51,712 nucleotides of DNA, from the IMG/VR virus record IMGVR_UViG_3300012944_000010, positions 1 through 51,712 of that record; one strand, written 5' to 3'. This DNA comes from a virus. Position numbers and translations under genes: made by a program. Of this stretch, positions 16,366-22,450 are shown in pieces (the stretch's first letter is position 1; each line of letters begins with the position of its first letter). The notes beneath the pieces were generated by a model that saw nothing but the letters and a program-made list of their open reading frames with translations, searched no databases and had not been told where the DNA came from.

Positions 16366-16499
16366 TTAAGCTTTCTGTAGGAGACAAAATCTCTGTTTTA
16401 GGAAAAGAATACACAGTCACTCAAGACATGTGCTTCGCAGACATGTACTCACTTGAACAGTGGGTTAAACAAATGCGTGCTTGGAAGCTAATAGATTGA
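16362..16499 (+). CDS. Small protein, 45 aa
   Basis: ATG 16362 overlaps the previous stop (ATGA) and TGA 16499 overlaps the TTG start of the DNA polymerase. The product (MIKLSVGDKISVLGKEYTV) begins like a small SH3- or OB-like beta fold and ends in a helix. No family is recognised. Coupling on both sides supports it. Confidence 0.55.
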   Translation: MIKLSVGDKISVLGKEYTVTQDMCFADMYSLEQWVKQMRAWKLID

Positions 16500-18415
16500 G
16501 AGTAGTATTCGACATAGAGGCTAATGGACTTATAAATCCTACGAAGATCTGGCTGATCGTATGTAGAGAGCTTGCTGAGCCCCTGGGTACAGTTGGTGCA
16601 CCCGGCTCTCTACATATCTTCAGAAAGGTATCGGATGATGAGTCAGAGAAGCAAAGGTTTCTGGAATTTAGTAGACAAGTTACTCAATGGATTGGTCATA
16701 ATTGTATTAGTTATGATTGTCCTGTTCTTAATGGATTATTGGGGCTGGTTATCCCCATTGAAAATGTGGTTGATACATTTATTATCTCCAAGTTAGTAGA
16801 TTATTCAAGAGATGGACATAGCATTGAAAGCTATGGGTTAGAGTTTAATATACCTAAGATTTCGTTTAATGATTTTAGTAAATATACATTAGAAATGGAG
16901 ACGTATTGTGTTAGAGATGTGGAAATCTGCCACAGAATATATAACAAGCATAGTGGGGTTATCAATGATCGAGCTTGGCGGACAGCTATTGACGTTGAGC
17001 AAAGCTTCCAGGTGGTTTGTGGGGAGTTGCATAATAATGGCTTTGCTTTCAATGTTAATGATGCAAATAAACTCCATAATAAAGTCACTAAAGAGTTAGC
17101 TGTCTTAGATAAAGCTATCTTAGAACAGTTTCCTCCCAGAGAAGTAATTCTCCGCTATTTCACGCCAAAGGCTACTAAGTTTGGTACCATAAATCGCACC
17201 TCCGTACCACGTAGCCTTTGGCATGAGATAGAGAATTACAAAGTAGGAGAGGAATATCCTGTCCATGGCATCCAGACGTTTAATCCTAGTAGTCATAAAC
17301 AAACTATTGATGTATTGTATGAAGCCGGGTGGAGTCCTATTGATAAAACTATTACTCACATTAAGGCTTTACGTACAAAGGATCAAGAAAAGCTTGACAA
17401 ACTAATTAAATACGGGTATAAAGTAAACGAGAATAACTTAAATACTTTACCTCCTAAAGCACCTGCCCCTGCTAGAACTCTAGCAAAGCGCATCCTGCTT
17501 GAGTCCCGACGAAGAACACTAACCGAATGGTTAGGTCTTGTCCAAGAAGACAATCGCATCCACGGGAAGTTCTACTCGATTGGAGCTTGGACTCACAGGA
17601 TGGCTCATCAAGAGCCTAATACCGCCAACATACTTAACGACACAGACACCCAAGGTAAGCCACGCCTATATGGCGGTGAGATGCGTAGCTTATGGTGTAC
17701 ACCGAAAGATAAGCTTCTAGTAGGTGTCGATGCAGAAGGCATCCAGTTACGCATCTTCGCTCATTACATTGATGATGAGGAGTTAACTAATGCCCTTGTC
17801 AACGGTAGAAAAGAAGATAAGACCGATCCGCATAGTGTCAACCAGAGGATCATTGGTGGTGTATGTCGATCTAGGGCTGCTGCAAAGCGGTTCTTATACG
17901 CGGTCTTTCTTGGAGCAGGATTGCGTAAGGTTGCTGAAATTCTGGACTGCTCAAAAGAAGAAGCAGAAGAGGCATTTGAACGTCTATTATCCCGTTATAC
18001 CGGCTTCGCCAAACTTAAACGTACAATTATACCGGCGGATGCGCGCCGTGGCTTTTTCATGGGGTTGGACGGTAGGCGGGTTCACATATACGGAGAGACA
18101 GTATCCGAACGACGACATCTGGCAATGTCGGGGTACCTCCAAAACGGTGAAGCGGTTGTAATGAAACACGCCACACTTCTCTGGCGTGATAGGTTGATTG
18201 AGAAGAAGATACCATTCAAGTTAGTGAACCTAGTTCACGATGAATGGCAAACGGAATGCCCAAATGATATGAGCATTGCGCTTGCCATTGCACAAGAACA
18301 GTGCACTGCACTGAGAGAGGTAGGTGAGAAACTGAAGTTACGATGCCCCCTAGCGGGGAGTTATGAGACAGACGGACATATTACTATAGGTGATAATTGG
18401 AAGGTGACACATTAG
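16496..18415 (+). CDS. Family A DNA polymerase with 3'-5' exonuclease, T7-like, 639 aa
   Basis: The replicative polymerase. The exonuclease domain has DIEAN (D6, E8; exo I), IGHNCISYD (exo II) and YCVRDVE (exo III). The polymerase domain has motif A (VGVDAEGIQLR), motif B (AAAKRFLYAVFLGAG, with Tyr at the position of T7 Tyr526) and motif C (LVHDEWQ). All catalytic residues seem intact, so proofreading is expected. TTG 16496 gives an N-terminus (MRVVFDIEANGL) like T7 gp5 and has GGAAG 8 nt upstream; TTG 16481 is an alternative. The length is slightly below T7 gp5 (704 aa). Confidence 0.95.
   Translation: MRVVFDIEANGLINPTKIWLIVCRELAEPLGTVGAPGSLHIFRKVSDDESEKQRFLEFSRQVTQWIGHNCISYDCPVLNGLLGLVIPIENVVDTFIISKLVDYSRDGHSIESYGLEFNIPKISFNDFSKYTLEMETYCVRDVEICHRIYNKHSGVINDRAWRTAIDVEQSFQVVCGELHNNGFAFNVNDANKLHNKVTKELAVLDKAILEQFPPREVILRYFTPKATKFGTINRTSVPRSLWHEIENYKVGEEYPVHGIQTFNPSSHKQTIDVLYEAGWSPIDKTITHIKALRTKDQEKLDKLIKYGYKVNENNLNTLPPKAPAPARTLAKRILLESRRRTLTEWLGLVQEDNRIHGKFYSIGAWTHRMAHQEPNTANILNDTDTQGKPRLYGGEMRSLWCTPKDKLLVGVDAEGIQLRIFAHYIDDEELTNALVNGRKEDKTDPHSVNQRIIGGVCRSRAAAKRFLYAVFLGAGLRKVAEILDCSKEEAEEAFERLLSRYTGFAKLKRTIIPADARRGFFMGLDGRRVHIYGETVSERRHLAMSGYLQNGEAVVMKHATLLWRDRLIEKKIPFKLVNLVHDEWQTECPNDMSIALAIAQEQCTALREVGEKLKLRCPLAGSYETDGHITIGDNWKVTH
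17394..17422 (+). promoter_or_regulatory. Possible internal promoter in the DNA polymerase gene
   Basis: TTGACA (17394-17399), 17-nt spacer, TATAAA (17417-17422). The match is as good as the intergenic promoters but lies within coding sequence, so it may be chance. If active it would raise expression of the ssDNA-binding protein and the downstream large RNA. Confidence 0.35.
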
Positions 18416-18843: not shown

Positions 18844-19341
18844 ATGCCTAGAGAACAAGAAGTAGTTTACCTTAGTGGTAAGATTGCGTGGGGCAGAGGA
18901 CTCTTTGTCCCTTCGCAATTCAATAAATATTCATGTAGATTATATTTAGATCAAGAGTCTTTAAACATTGTACTAGATTTGAAGAAGAGAGGAATACAGA
19001 ATAACGTAACCAAAGATGAAAATGGATATTGGGTTAATCTGTCCCGTCCTTCTCAAATCAATGTACGTGGTGCTCTACGCACAATGGACCCACCTATTGT
19101 TATCGCTTCCGATGGACAACCTTGGGATAAGAACAAGGGAATTGGGGACGATAGTGATGTTACTTGTCAGGTAATCGTCCGTAATTGGAAAGCACCTATG
19201 GGCGGAAAGACAGGTGTTTCTATTAGGTTAGACTCTGTTAGAATTGATAACTTAGTTGAATTTACTAGTACAGATTGGCCTGAAGCAGTCGGTAAGAATG
19301 TTAAGGCTCTAGAAGAACATAAAGTAACTCCTTGGAATTAG
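18844..19341 (+). CDS. Probable single-stranded DNA-binding protein, 165 aa
   Basis: The sequence has the order seen in phage OB-fold ssDNA-binding proteins of the DUF2815/T7 gp2.5 type: a first strand with VVYLSGKIAWGRGLF, aromatic FNKYSCRLYLDQ, a central insertion, and a late strand with DVTCQVIVRNW. The length is typical. It lacks an obvious very acidic tail, unlike T7 gp2.5. It follows the DNA polymerase in the replication operon, which supports the call. Its stop codon overlaps the stem of a terminator. Confidence 0.7.
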   Translation: MPREQEVVYLSGKIAWGRGLFVPSQFNKYSCRLYLDQESLNIVLDLKKRGIQNNVTKDENGYWVNLSRPSQINVRGALRTMDPPIVIASDGQPWDKNKGIGDDSDVTCQVIVRNWKAPMGGKTGVSIRLDSVRIDNLVEFTSTDWPEAVGKNVKALEEHKVTPWN

Positions 19342-19420
19342 CCAGCCTAGTCCACTGATACAGACAGCCTACCCTACTCCCGTAGTGACTCCTGTATATC
19401 AGATGGTTGGCTCTTTTATT
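19340..19420 (+). terminator. Branched intrinsic terminator or attenuator after the ssDNA-binding gene
   Basis: AGCCAGCC (19340-19347) pairs with GGTTGGCT (19405-19412) over 8 bp with one G-T, followed by CTTTTATT. Inside are CTGATACAG pairing with CTGTATATCAG (two-base bulge) and a small CTAC-TCCC-GTAG hairpin. It separates the replication operon from the structured RNA. Confidence 0.65.
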
Positions 19421-19436
19421 AGCAGCTCTGCTGCGC

Positions 19437-19453
19437 ATGTTGCGGAGCAACAT
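19437..19453. repeat. Tri-loop palindrome ATGTTGC-GGA-GCAACAT
   Basis: A perfect 7-bp stem with 3-nt loop. The same stem with a TTC loop recurs at 36845-36861, and a variant TGTTTGC-TAC-GCAAACA lies at 44255-44271. All are intergenic. Confidence 0.7.
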
Positions 19454-19458
19454 TTAAT

Positions 19459-20700
19459 AGGGTGTTGCAGGTACGGTAACGTATTCTGTTCTGAGAGATG
19501 GTTTCGCCGTAAGGCTCTCACTCTAGGTTGCAGGCGAAGTAACAATCTAGCACCCTTTTATTAGCGTAGCTCAACAGCAAGAGCCCCACCTGTATGTGCT
19601 GGCGTGATCCAGTGGGAAACCGTGGGAGATGTAGGTTAAAGTCCTATCGCTATTTGTCCCTTTGTACAAATCTTTGTGCAGTAGTATAAAAGCGCAGGTA
19701 TAGACGGGTTAGAACTAGTAAACGGGTACTACAGGCCCGTGGGTTAGGTTCTCCAGGCCTAACTGTTCCGTCTCGATTACGCACGACGGCTGTCCGAACG
19801 TCGTTACCAGCCCTACGGGGCCAGAAATCCGGTGTTGCGCTCCGGCTGTGACTACACAGCTCCCAATAGGTGAGTTGTAAGGTGATGTGTACAGAGGGAC
19901 AAACTAAGGCTAGATCCTTACGCTGTAACCCCTCCATAAGGTGCAGCATGTGTCGGTAAGTAGGCCATTACTTGCAACCAGCCACATATGTGATCCTCTG
20001 CCCTCGGTGAACCGTCTTAACGGATCACTTAAGATGCTAAAAGACAATGTTAGCTAGTACCGGAAGGTATTCTAGCAGGTTGTGCAGGCAGATCATGGGA
20101 CGTTAAAAAACTCGATATGTTCCGTCTCTGTGGAAGCTAACGTATGTGGAAGTAGTTCCGTAAAGGTCCGCAATTCCTGGATTGTCTGTCCAGGATACGA
20201 CGATAGTCCTCGTGTATGATAAACTACAATCTCCACTCCCTCACTCATTCTTGCCGTGTAGGCATTGCTTTCAAACGCACAGAGCTGTAGAGTAGTAGGA
20301 GATTGAGGCGTCGTGTCAGATAGTGCCGCCGCTTCTCAAAGGTAGACACCAGAGAGATAGGGGAGCTACTGACACTGATTGACGATCAGTCCATAGGCGG
20401 GCAAGTAACGAGTCGTAGGACACAAAGCCCATGCTTTCAAGCTAAAGGGTGATTATAGGAATGAAAAGACTATGAGGCAGTCTAACGCCCTCTGAAGGCA
20501 GTCACTGTACCATCTGGGAAACTTTGTGGATAAACTCATAGTAGCGAATGCTCTGTTAGTTTGCTAACAGAGATACTATTCCCACTGCTTGCATAGTCGA
20601 GGTGGTGCTACAGGCCGTCAACAGATATGCAGCAGCAACCGCAGGAGGTGACAATGTTTCCTATGTGGTATGGGAATAAGCCTCCTTAAGTATTACCGGG
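19459..20700 (+). ncRNA. Giant structured non-coding RNA candidate (GOLLD/ROOL-like or new class)
   Basis: Roughly 1.24 kb with no credible gene, packed with strong local and long-range stems. AGGGTG (19459-19464)/CACCCT (19551-19556) closes a 5' element. GACGG (19703-19707)/CCGTC (19768-19772) encloses ACGGG/CCCGT (19722-19740) and GTTAGG/CCTAAC (19743-19763), a three-way junction. Others are ACGACG/CGTCGT (19783-19804), GCTGTG-ACTA-CACAGC (19845-19860), GTGATCC/GGATCAC (19990-20028), GCTAG-TACC-GGAA-GGTA-TT-CTAGC with a GNRA loop (20053-20076), GATACGACG/CGTCGTGTC (20194-20202/20309-20317) stacked outside CAATCTCC/GGAGATTG (20227-20234/20298-20305), CTCTGTTAG-TTTG-CTAACAGAG (20551-20572), and GGAGG/CCTCC (20644-20685). 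GOLLD and ROOL RNAs are large, phage- or prophage-associated and form RNA-only multimers. Membership here is inference, as are the exact ends. Confidence 0.75.
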
Positions 20701-20750
20701 GGGCTAGGTTGTCGTTGCTATTATAATGAATTCATTTCTTAACAAATTTA

Positions 20751-20801: not shown

Positions 20802-21095
20802 ATGGGTAGCGGCATCTTAGACATGCTTCTACTACAGAGCTTACTCAAACCATCAGGAGGCACTGAGTCATTAGATCAGGCACTTAAATGGATTGAGGAA
20901 TTCAGGAAGACAGAGAAGGAGAAATCTGATAAAGCTAAAGCTAAAGGACCACAACCAGCACCTAAGATATTCTCATTCCCTGATGTTTGTTTCATATTAT
21001 TAGGACTGGGACTACCAGCTGGTTTATTATGGATGTGGGGTGTCTTAGAACTAATTGATATTGTGCAACACAGAGCAGCAGGTATATTTCACTAA
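20802..21095 (+). CDS. Membrane protein, 97 aa
   Basis: ATG 20802 with GGAG 8 nt upstream. A charged helical segment (residues 28-50, EEFRKTEKEKSDKAKAKG) precedes one long hydrophobic stretch (about 58-88, VCFILLGLGLPAGLLWMWGV), consistent with one transmembrane helix or a hairpin. It could be holin-like or an anchor for a complex. It is the first gene after the large RNA. No family is recognised. Confidence 0.6.
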   Translation: MGSGILDMLLLQSLLKPSGGTESLDQALKWIEEFRKTEKEKSDKAKAKGPQPAPKIFSFPDVCFILLGLGLPAGLLWMWGVLELIDIVQHRAAGIFH

Positions 21096-21098
21096 TTT

Positions 21099-21971
21099 AT
21101 GACTACTTCTATTCACACATTGATAACTGATGTTCGTGATCTACTCAAAACTAAAGGGTGGCTCACAGAGGTATTGGCGAAGGAACTGGGCGATGCAACA
21201 TCAAGATCTATTGGAGAACAGTTCTCCGAAAAACAAAAGGCTCCTTCGCTCCGCCTTTCAGGAATGGGACCGAGATGCCCTAAGGCATTATGGCATAGTA
21301 TACACACGCCGGGAGAGGCTGAACCTCTTCCACATTGGGCTGAAGCAAAATTCTCTTTGGGTCATTTCCAAGAGGCTTATGGCATAACACTTGCCAAGGC
21401 TGCTGGGCATAAAGTTGAAGGAGAGCAACATGAGTGCCACCTTGACGGCGTCAAAGGTCATGTGGATGCTATTGTTGACGGTTGTGTGGTTGATTTCAAG
21501 TCCTGTAGCGGCCGCCAATATCAGAAGTATAAATCCGGGGATATTGGGTTGGAGGGTAATGATTCGTTTGGGTTTCTTTGCCAGCTGGACGGGTACGTTA
21601 CTGCTTGTGGGCAGGATGATCTTGTTCATGTAAAAGACAAAGGCTATATTTTTGCAATGCATAAGGAACTAGGACATGTCTGCCTCTACGAGCACAGAAC
21701 TAGACCGGCTAGCATTCGAGAGCGCATTACTCAATACCGTAGCGTGGTTGAGCGAAAGCATCCGCCTGAGTGCACCTGTAAAACCGTACAACATGGAGCA
21801 AGTGGAAATATTGGTCTTGATACACGAGCTAGCTATGAAGCTTACAAATGGTGTTGTTTCCCCAAACTTCGTTGTTTCATCTACGCCAACGGACCCGCCT
21901 ATCTAACACGTGTAGTGAGGTTGCCAGATGTCCCAGAAGTCGGAAGAGATGGAAAGCTCATGCACACTTAA
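21099..21971 (+). CDS. Cas4/RecB-like PD-(D/E)XK exonuclease, 290 aa
   Basis: The nuclease core is visible: an upstream Glu (FQEAYG, about 92), GHVDAIVDGCVVDFKS with D123, D132 and K134, and a following Gln/Tyr-rich helix (QYQKYK), as in RecB-family and Cas4 nucleases. Cys60 and C-terminal cysteines (CTCK and CCFPKLRC) could hold an iron-sulfur cluster as in Cas4-type enzymes. In T7-like phages an exonuclease (gp6) degrades host DNA and removes primers, and this gene probably fills that role. ATG 21099 is 3 bp after the preceding stop and lacks a strong ribosome site. Confidence 0.8.
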   Translation: MTTSIHTLITDVRDLLKTKGWLTEVLAKELGDATSRSIGEQFSEKQKAPSLRLSGMGPRCPKALWHSIHTPGEAEPLPHWAEAKFSLGHFQEAYGITLAKAAGHKVEGEQHECHLDGVKGHVDAIVDGCVVDFKSCSGRQYQKYKSGDIGLEGNDSFGFLCQLDGYVTACGQDDLVHVKDKGYIFAMHKELGHVCLYEHRTRPASIRERITQYRSVVERKHPPECTCKTVQHGASGNIGLDTRASYEAYKWCCFPKLRCFIYANGPAYLTRVVRLPDVPEVGRDGKLMHT

Positions 21972-22110: not shown

Positions 22111-22450
22111 GTTCGAACAGAAGATCTCGAACCAGCTTAAGAAAGCTAAGGTGGAGTTTGGCTATGAGAAAGTTCGTATCCCTTACGTTATTCACGGTTG
22201 GTATATTCCTGATTTCATCGTGGATTTACATCTATTTCCTTCCGAAGATAAACGCTTGTATATCGAAACAAAAGGATACTTACGGCCAGAGCATAAACGA
22301 AAGATGGTTGCCGTTCGACGGTGTAATCCCACCCTAGACATAAGGCTGGTGTTCTATGCTCATAACAAGAAATACATAAAGTGGGCAGAGAAGAATGGCT
22401 TTCCGTGGGCTGTAGGCGAAATACCGAAGGAGTGGTTAAAATGTTACTAG
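22082..22450 (+). CDS. T7 endonuclease I-like Holliday-junction resolvase, 122 aa, probable ATT start
   Basis: The product aligns by eye with T7 gp3. FEQKISNQLKKAKVEFGY corresponds to T7 LEDKVSKQLESKGIKFEY, including the catalytic Glu (T7 E20). IPYVIHGWYIPDFIVD carries the catalytic Asp (D55) and YIETKGY the E-x-K pair (E65, K67); the end is IPKEWL. The only canonical start, GTG 22151, lies after the catalytic Glu codon (22115). Upstream to the in-frame stop TAG 22079-22081 the only near-cognate starts are ATT 22082, ATC 22091 and ATC 22100. AGGA ends 4 nt before ATT 22082. This nuclease should resolve branched replication intermediates and degrade host DNA. Confidence 0.85.
   Translation: MLTIPKIRNKFEQKISNQLKKAKVEFGYEKVRIPYVIHGWYIPDFIVDLHLFPSEDKRLYIETKGYLRPEHKRKMVAVRRCNPTLDIRLVFYAHNKKYIKWAEKNGFPWAVGEIPKEWLKCY

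Follow-up and report, generated by a model that had tools for sequence, protein, structure and literature searches.

Does the long gene-poor interval between the DNA polymerase and exonuclease genes of this virus encode a large structured RNA and, if so, what might such an RNA do? Few RNAs without a known function are as highly structured as the large ornate RNAs of phages, and the interval described here combines features of such RNAs with a short reading frame at its 3' end whose last codons are suggestive of a role in translation.

Genomic setting and coding content of the interval

The window, i.e., the whole stretch of DNA analysed here, corresponds to a 51.7-kb virus record of IMG/VR type. 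Its + strand carries the replication genes, which extend as far as 24.4 kb, and its - strand the structural genes. The DNA polymerase (16481-18415) belongs to family A, and its closest isolated relatives are found in Roseobacter and Lentibacter podoviruses, e.g., CRP-4, CRP-5, and ICBM2, with identities of about 40%. A search of bacterial genomes yielded no close relative and, hence, no host is assigned, while DNA similarity searches with the window and the RNAs of two relatives against 50,697 phage records gave no match. On the left, the interval is bordered by a 165-aa protein (18844..19341, +) common to more than 50 relatives, which may be SSB-like as judged by its position and a GNGSDVT motif, with no PDB or Pfam match; a direct search using this protein also gave no matches. 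On the right, it adjoins a 97-aa ORF without assigned function (20802-21095), immediately 5' of the Cas4-domain exonuclease (21099..21971, +; PHROG 1990) that constitutes the right border. The bounds of the region can be revised to about 19342..20705 (+), from the stop of the upstream gene to the hairpin 3' of a tiny ORF described below, with no ORF above chance in between. A second long stretch with no ORFs of at least 80 aa and with low G+C is present at 1488-2800 of the window.

The initial annotation of this DNA saw no credible gene here, a statement that holds for anything long, given that the longest stop-free run in 19342-20653 spans 105 codons compared with a mean of 106 in shuffled sequences, and that no protein family was found for this region. 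Nevertheless, an 11-codon ORF with a strong Shine-Dalgarno sequence had been missed at 20654-20689. The strong stems on which that annotation relied can indeed be drawn, but their thermodynamics provide no convincing excess over chance. The folding energy of the whole 1252 nt gives z = -2.4, whereas two coding stretches of equal length give -2.7 and -5.1; single-sequence energy z-scores are thus uninformative, because coding DNA does equally well. The structures originally singled out have z-scores between -1.5 and -2.9, including a three-way junction (19699-19775, z -1.5), a GNRA-type hairpin (20044-20084, z -2.8), and a nested stem (20188-20322, z -1.5). These ordinary energies are, therefore, insufficient by themselves as evidence for a structured RNA.

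At the 5' side of the region, a branched hairpin at about 19338-19422 (+; z -2.9) is followed by CTTTTATTAG and appears terminator- or processing-like, and a four-way branched stem (AGGGTG...CACCCT) at about 19455-19560 (+; z -2.25) is accompanied by a second copy of the same 10-mer. Only two copies of this 10-mer occur in the window, at 19413-19422 and 19555-19564 (+), each directly 3' of a closed branched stem, an arrangement that resembles a duplicated terminator or processing unit.

Covariation and tRNA-like parts among the relatives

Scans of IMG/VR with the adjacent DNA polymerase brought up roughly 80 different contigs, whose polymerases share 37-60% identity with that of the window; from the metagenome sources of the family, we take these relatives to be soil phages. 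Every complete long-form interval exhibits the same gene order, namely polymerase, 165-aa protein, a gap of 1.1-3.7 kb, and exonuclease, and the gap contains no widely conserved ORF, with an extra small ORF present in some members. This long-gap form was counted in 59 relatives, 57 found by automatic detection and two carrying a divergent 165-aa protein. L062, which is more distantly related and lacks the giant RNA, has only a small ORF and a tRNA-like gene with a 6-nt anticodon loop in this gap (L062:8678-8927), possibly reflecting the ancestral condition out of which the RNA expanded.

The body of the region is alignable within clusters, the best sampled of which comprises seven phages (L007, L008, L010, L013, L018, L089, and L090) with about 57-87% identity over the region and a 548-column alignment. 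Two-sided compensatory changes occur in 40 of its 81 predicted pairs, compared with 11 at most in slid versions of the structure. The covariation score amounts to 0.455, against 0.211 ± 0.017 for shuffles and no more than 0.106 for slid versions, and 93.2% of cells are paired. This last value is favoured by the use of one alignment both to derive the structure and to score it, and the two-sided counts are the better measure. Moreover, alifold z-scores against column shuffles range from -6.2 to -9.8 for the RNA of six phages, whereas their polymerase gene reaches -0.9 to -3.3 and exhibits no covariation gain. Similar results against column shuffles were obtained for two further clusters (L053/L057/L080/L094/L095 and L031/L036/L061). 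Among the pairs, 77 cells are G-U and six are A-C, an excess consistent with a + strand RNA, with the proviso that the predictor itself allows G-U. Helices with two-sided compensatory changes above controls were, in sum, found both in the seven-phage cluster and in a tRNA-like element that includes the window.

This tRNA-like element (19560..19656, +; 97 nt) begins 219 nt after the upstream stop and scores 34.1 bits with the Rfam tRNA model. It contains an acceptor-like stem, a D-arm (GCTC-AACAGCAA-GAGC), and a T-arm hairpin at 19631..19647 (+; GTAGG-TTAAAGT-CCTAT) with the loop TTAAAGT, and CCA is not encoded. The anticodon-stem position is occupied by a 5-bp stem with an expanded loop instead of a normal anticodon loop; no cloverleaf with a 7-nt anticodon loop was found at 19560-19656, and ARAGORN gives no amino acid. 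With this expanded insert in place of an anticodon loop, the element is unable to decode in the manner of a normal tRNA. The same element is present in L053, L134, and L043, and in an alignment of these three relatives with the window, for which the structure was set by hand, 95% of cells are paired and 10 of 21 pairs are changed on both sides, with three at most in slid versions. No two of the phages have the same acceptor-like stem, but hardly any change is seen in the D-arm or in the T-loop TTAAAGT. A covariance model built from these four sequences recovered L052 (1.3e-15), L044 (1.4e-9), and L067 (2e-5) outside the seed, the L052 match lying 5.7 kb downstream of the polymerase and outside this interval, and it also matched two ordinary tRNA-Ile genes (L028 and L030). 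The full element is found at this interval in only about eight relatives, at no more than about 430 nt from the upstream gene.

Far more widespread are T-arm hairpins, defined by a stem of at least 5 and a loop TTNRANY, which were detected in 48 of 58 regions; shuffles gave 0.6, and the coding DNA control 1 of 57. The stems flanking these loops covary (175/228, against 101.6 ± 6.1 when re-dealt). Several other hairpins in which the loop is fixed and the stem varies recur as well, represented by GTCTCATTAGC, GCCAGATWAGC, GGCTGTCTACC, and CTGGAAGCAG; the 7-nt cores of the first three may correspond to anticodon loops (CAU, GAU, and GUC). Such anticodon-like hairpins occur downstream of the 165-aa protein and upstream of the tiny ORF in L013, L016, L027, L039, L053, L057, L063, and others, placed differently from phage to phage, and a fixed GGAGGCTAAAA loop is also present.

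The abundance of tRNA parts raises the question of whether the interval could be a decayed tRNA array or a replication origin with incidental stems, its peptide gene being an ordinary small protein. Phage tRNA islands are common, and the interval does hold T-arms together with some recognisable tRNAs (L028 and L062), but decay would not produce compensatory changes in 40 of 81 pairs or invariant loops on varying stems, so we consider this explanation highly unlikely.

For the body of the window itself, L002 is the sole relative close enough to align, with which it shares long identical islands. One of these islands, CGTATGTGGAAGTAGTTCCGTAAAGGTC (20141..20168, +), has a single mismatch in L002, and a long-range 10-bp helix pairing 19982..19991 with 20140..20149 (+) exhibits one A-U to U-A swap, the rest being identical. 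The stem CAATCTCC/GGAGATTG (20227..20305, +), which is part of the nested stem and encloses the conserved island GCCGTGTAGGCATTGCTTTCAA (20253-20274), is re-paired with other letters in L002 (GCATCAT/ATGATGT), whereas no pairing of the companion stem GATACGACG/CGTCGTGTC was detected in that phage. Altogether, 25 window stems have counterparts in L002, compared with 17.3 ± 3.6 at shifted registers, a modest excess from one homologue only. RNAalifold with non-default weights gave -451 for this pair against -403 ± 15 for column shuffles, a value not relied on because the alignment of the variable part is unreliable. Exact islands of the window RNA were found in IMG/VR only in L002, apart from two unrelated coding matches. 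The strong covariation is in the relatives and not in the window's own sequence and, since the stem test in the window is weak, the window is assigned to the class on the basis of synteny, its tRNA-like element, and its Pro-Pro-stop ORF. Likewise, the body is not alignable between clusters and, thus, it is from synteny and shared parts that we infer one RNA in all 59 regions.

Taken as a whole, the synteny in 59 relatives and the covariation in alignable clusters bear out the original proposal that the replication operon contains a large structured RNA, and a structured RNA class is very probably encoded here, as far as comparative sequence analysis can indicate. What the proposal had overlooked are the tRNA-like elements and the universal Pro-Pro-stop ORF. 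It had further offered two affiliations, a divergent member of the GOLLD or ROOL families or a new class. GOLLD is an RNA reportedly described by Weinberg in 2009. In the window, no Rfam match to GOLLD, ROOL, OLE, or HEARO was obtained at E up to 10 with permissive filters, and none of the four was matched in 15 relatives, the GOLLD test being based on the Rfam covariance model, which represents the conserved 3' half. At gathering thresholds and at E up to 10, Rfam returned only tRNA (weak in the window), sub-threshold chance hits, and one sub-threshold His_leader, a histidine operon leader match at L010:10339-10443 (-) with 37 bits compared with a gathering value of 49. Neither ARAGORN nor Rfam called a tmRNA gene, and no description of such an RNA was found in the open-access literature.

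In size, the RNA is comparable to GOLLD and ROOL (PMC12286853), although homology to either was not found by covariance model; like GOLLD, it is a large ornate phage RNA with many helices, a kind often near or holding tRNAs, and like ROOL, a large RNA of phages or prophages near tRNA islands (PMC12286853). It differs from GOLLD in that a Pro-Pro-stop ORF closes every member and T-arm hairpins are located inside the body, and from ROOL in its architecture and in a single-chain length of about 1.4 kb or more. A universal Pro-Pro-stop ORF is not known as a part of GOLLD or ROOL. Despite the similar size, phage origin, and nearness to tRNA-like elements (PMC12286853), the lack of any Rfam match even under permissive conditions leaves membership in either family as the least probable of the explanations considered, and a very improbable one. 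The cmscan comparison of the window and 15 relatives with Rfam thus gives no support to the first affiliation, and a new class was the better half of the original alternative.

The Pro-Pro-stop reading frame at the 3' boundary

The tiny ORF of the window (20654..20689, +) comprises 11 codons, MFPMWYGNKPP*, with the Pro-Pro codons at 20681-20686 and the stop at 20687-20689. It is preceded by the Shine-Dalgarno sequence AGGAGG (20643..20648, +), which could pair with the Pro codons (GCCTCCT), and a hairpin extends over the Pro codons and stop (20679..20705, +), its counterpart in relatives being mostly a GC-rich hairpin just 3' of the stop. Among the intervals, the 70 nt 3' of the stop fold much more stably than shuffled sequences, with a mean z of -2.4 and 55% below -2, compared with -0.28 and -0.65 in controls.

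Exactly one Shine-Dalgarno-led ORF ending in Pro-Pro-stop, 11-29 codons long, is present in each of 57 intervals (57/57), at the 3' boundary of the structured region. Two further relatives also carry one (12 and 33 codons), extending the count to 59/59 and the range to 11-33 codons. The runner-up C-terminal dipeptide occurs in 5 of 57 intervals, and ORFs of this type were found in 5 of 285 shuffled intervals, in 1 of 57 on the reverse strand, in two loci within the 2 kb after the exonuclease start, and in none of 11 outgroups lacking the long gene-poor interval. A 57-residue small ORF at 22164-22337 (+) of the window, probably membrane-anchored, also ends in Pro-Pro-stop (MRKFVSLTLFTVGIFLISS...DGVIPP).

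The first Pro codon can be CCT, CCA, CCC, or CCG, while the second is mostly CCT, and the stop is TAA in 57 of 58 cases. Since the first Pro codon varies in its third base, it is amino acids and not bases that are conserved at this end. In the same direction, an identical peptide is encoded by L018 and L089, although six of its codons differ synonymously, every amino acid being unchanged over the codons tested; only this pair is used here, because a synonymous-share test over all peptide pairs is biased by the choice of pairs according to peptide identity. The segment CCTCCTTAA was considered as a mimic of the 16S anti-Shine-Dalgarno sequence and rejected, its sole freely varying base being the wobble position of the first Pro codon. 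The residue before Pro-Pro is R in 22 and Q in 21 of 58 peptides (43/58 together). The peptide body is conserved to some degree inside a cluster, as an ordinary small protein would be, but between clusters only the Pro-Pro end is shared, which argues against that part of the decay explanation as well.

A Shine-Dalgarno sequence, a start codon, and a conserved Pro-Pro-stop end are thus all present, as in a termination-arrest ORF. C-terminal Pro-Pro interferes with termination and induces SsrA tagging in E. coli, and it is avoided and rare at the ends of bacterial proteins (PMC3985003, PMC2998420). A universal Pro-Pro-stop on otherwise unrelated micro-peptides is most simply read as a programmed termination pause, and the ORF is probably translated with pausing at its end, to judge from its sequence features. 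The strength of stalling at Pro-Pro-stop may vary with context and host, the data being from E. coli.

The closest parallels to such an ORF are TnaC, other termination-arrest leaders, and the C-terminal Pro-Pro context of SsrA tagging, which share a short ORF with Pro before the stop and an expected slow peptide release. The main rival to an ORF acting for the RNA is accordingly leader-peptide control of downstream genes in the manner of TnaC, in which a stall at Pro-Pro-stop would alter folding, termination, or processing before the exonuclease, and the large RNA upstream would be a separate or accessory element. In TnaC, too, the stall occurs at a terminal Pro that precedes the stop (PMC3985003), the tiny ORF is upstream of the exonuclease in every case, and its Pro codons can pair with the Shine-Dalgarno sequence or with the following G-rich hairpin, a stable hairpin being present after the stop. 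However, that hairpin was not called as a terminator in the window scan (no U-run), and the ORF and the exonuclease are 277 to 1296 nt apart, depending on the phage, with intervening genes in some members. Moreover, the ORF is tied to the long RNA, both being missing together in relatives that keep the exonuclease. The arrangement also departs from TnaC in that a structured RNA of kilobase size, and not a short leader, carries the ORF at its 3' end, and in that the peptide body is unconserved across clusters. Leader-peptide control is, for these reasons, judged rather unlikely, albeit the strongest of the competing explanations. An ORF that serves the RNA is favoured because it tracks the long RNA and does not keep a fixed distance to the next gene.

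Lying precisely where the structured region ends on its 3' side, the ORF would also suit a role as a programmed 3'-end maker, in which the paused ribosome would provoke cleavage at or adjacent to the A site and thereby free the giant RNA from the polycistronic transcript, after which tmRNA would rescue the ribosome. In E. coli, long arrest together with RNase II trimming gives A-site cleavage (PMC3834316), but the stable hairpin after the stop should impede 3' exonucleases, and this mechanism is accordingly regarded as improbable, less so than decay and more so than leader-peptide control.

Proposed parking of a ribosome on a giant RNA

The explanation that best accommodates these observations is a new class of large structured phage RNA closed by a 3' arrest ORF that parks a ribosome, a complete picture to which we give even chances. 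An RNA of about 1.4 kb would be transcribed from the + strand together with the replication operon, starting in some members with a tRNA-like element near the 5' end, continuing with covarying helices, often with T-arm (T-loop) hairpins, and ending with a ribosome-binding site, the ORF terminated by Pro-Pro-stop (11 codons in the window), and a stable hairpin. A host ribosome would initiate on the tiny ORF, arrive at Pro-Pro-stop, and presumably be held there, as C-terminal Pro-Pro resists release factor action. Parked on the RNA 3' end, the ribosome would tether the folded RNA and its tRNA mimics to itself and could also shield or define that end. Candidate purposes are, therefore, ribosome capture, protection or definition of the 3' end, and an action of the tRNA-like parts on the ribosome. 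That the parking takes place on behalf of the RNA is a plausible step, held with somewhat less than even confidence.

The combination of a tRNA-like element and a short reading frame in one RNA recalls tmRNA (ssrA). However, the ORF here has its own Shine-Dalgarno sequence and start codon and ends in Pro-Pro-stop where tmRNA encodes a degradation tag. The tRNA-like element, moreover, forms a compact, separate unit that includes a D-stem. In its most specific and more tentative form, the proposal is that a widespread clade of soil phages produces a kilobase-scale RNA machine, built partly from tRNA-like modules, which loads host ribosomes through a tiny ORF, arrests them at Pro-Pro-stop, and acts while bound to the ribosome.

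The 59 members already offer enough diversity for covariation in one cluster, and the 3' end supplies a conserved and testable clue, a reading frame with a known termination-blocking end. If the proposal is true, this would be a ribosome-trapping RNA, sequestering, remodelling, or marking ribosomes during infection, unlike tmRNA, GOLLD, or ROOL, and it would tie giant phage RNAs to the control of host translation.
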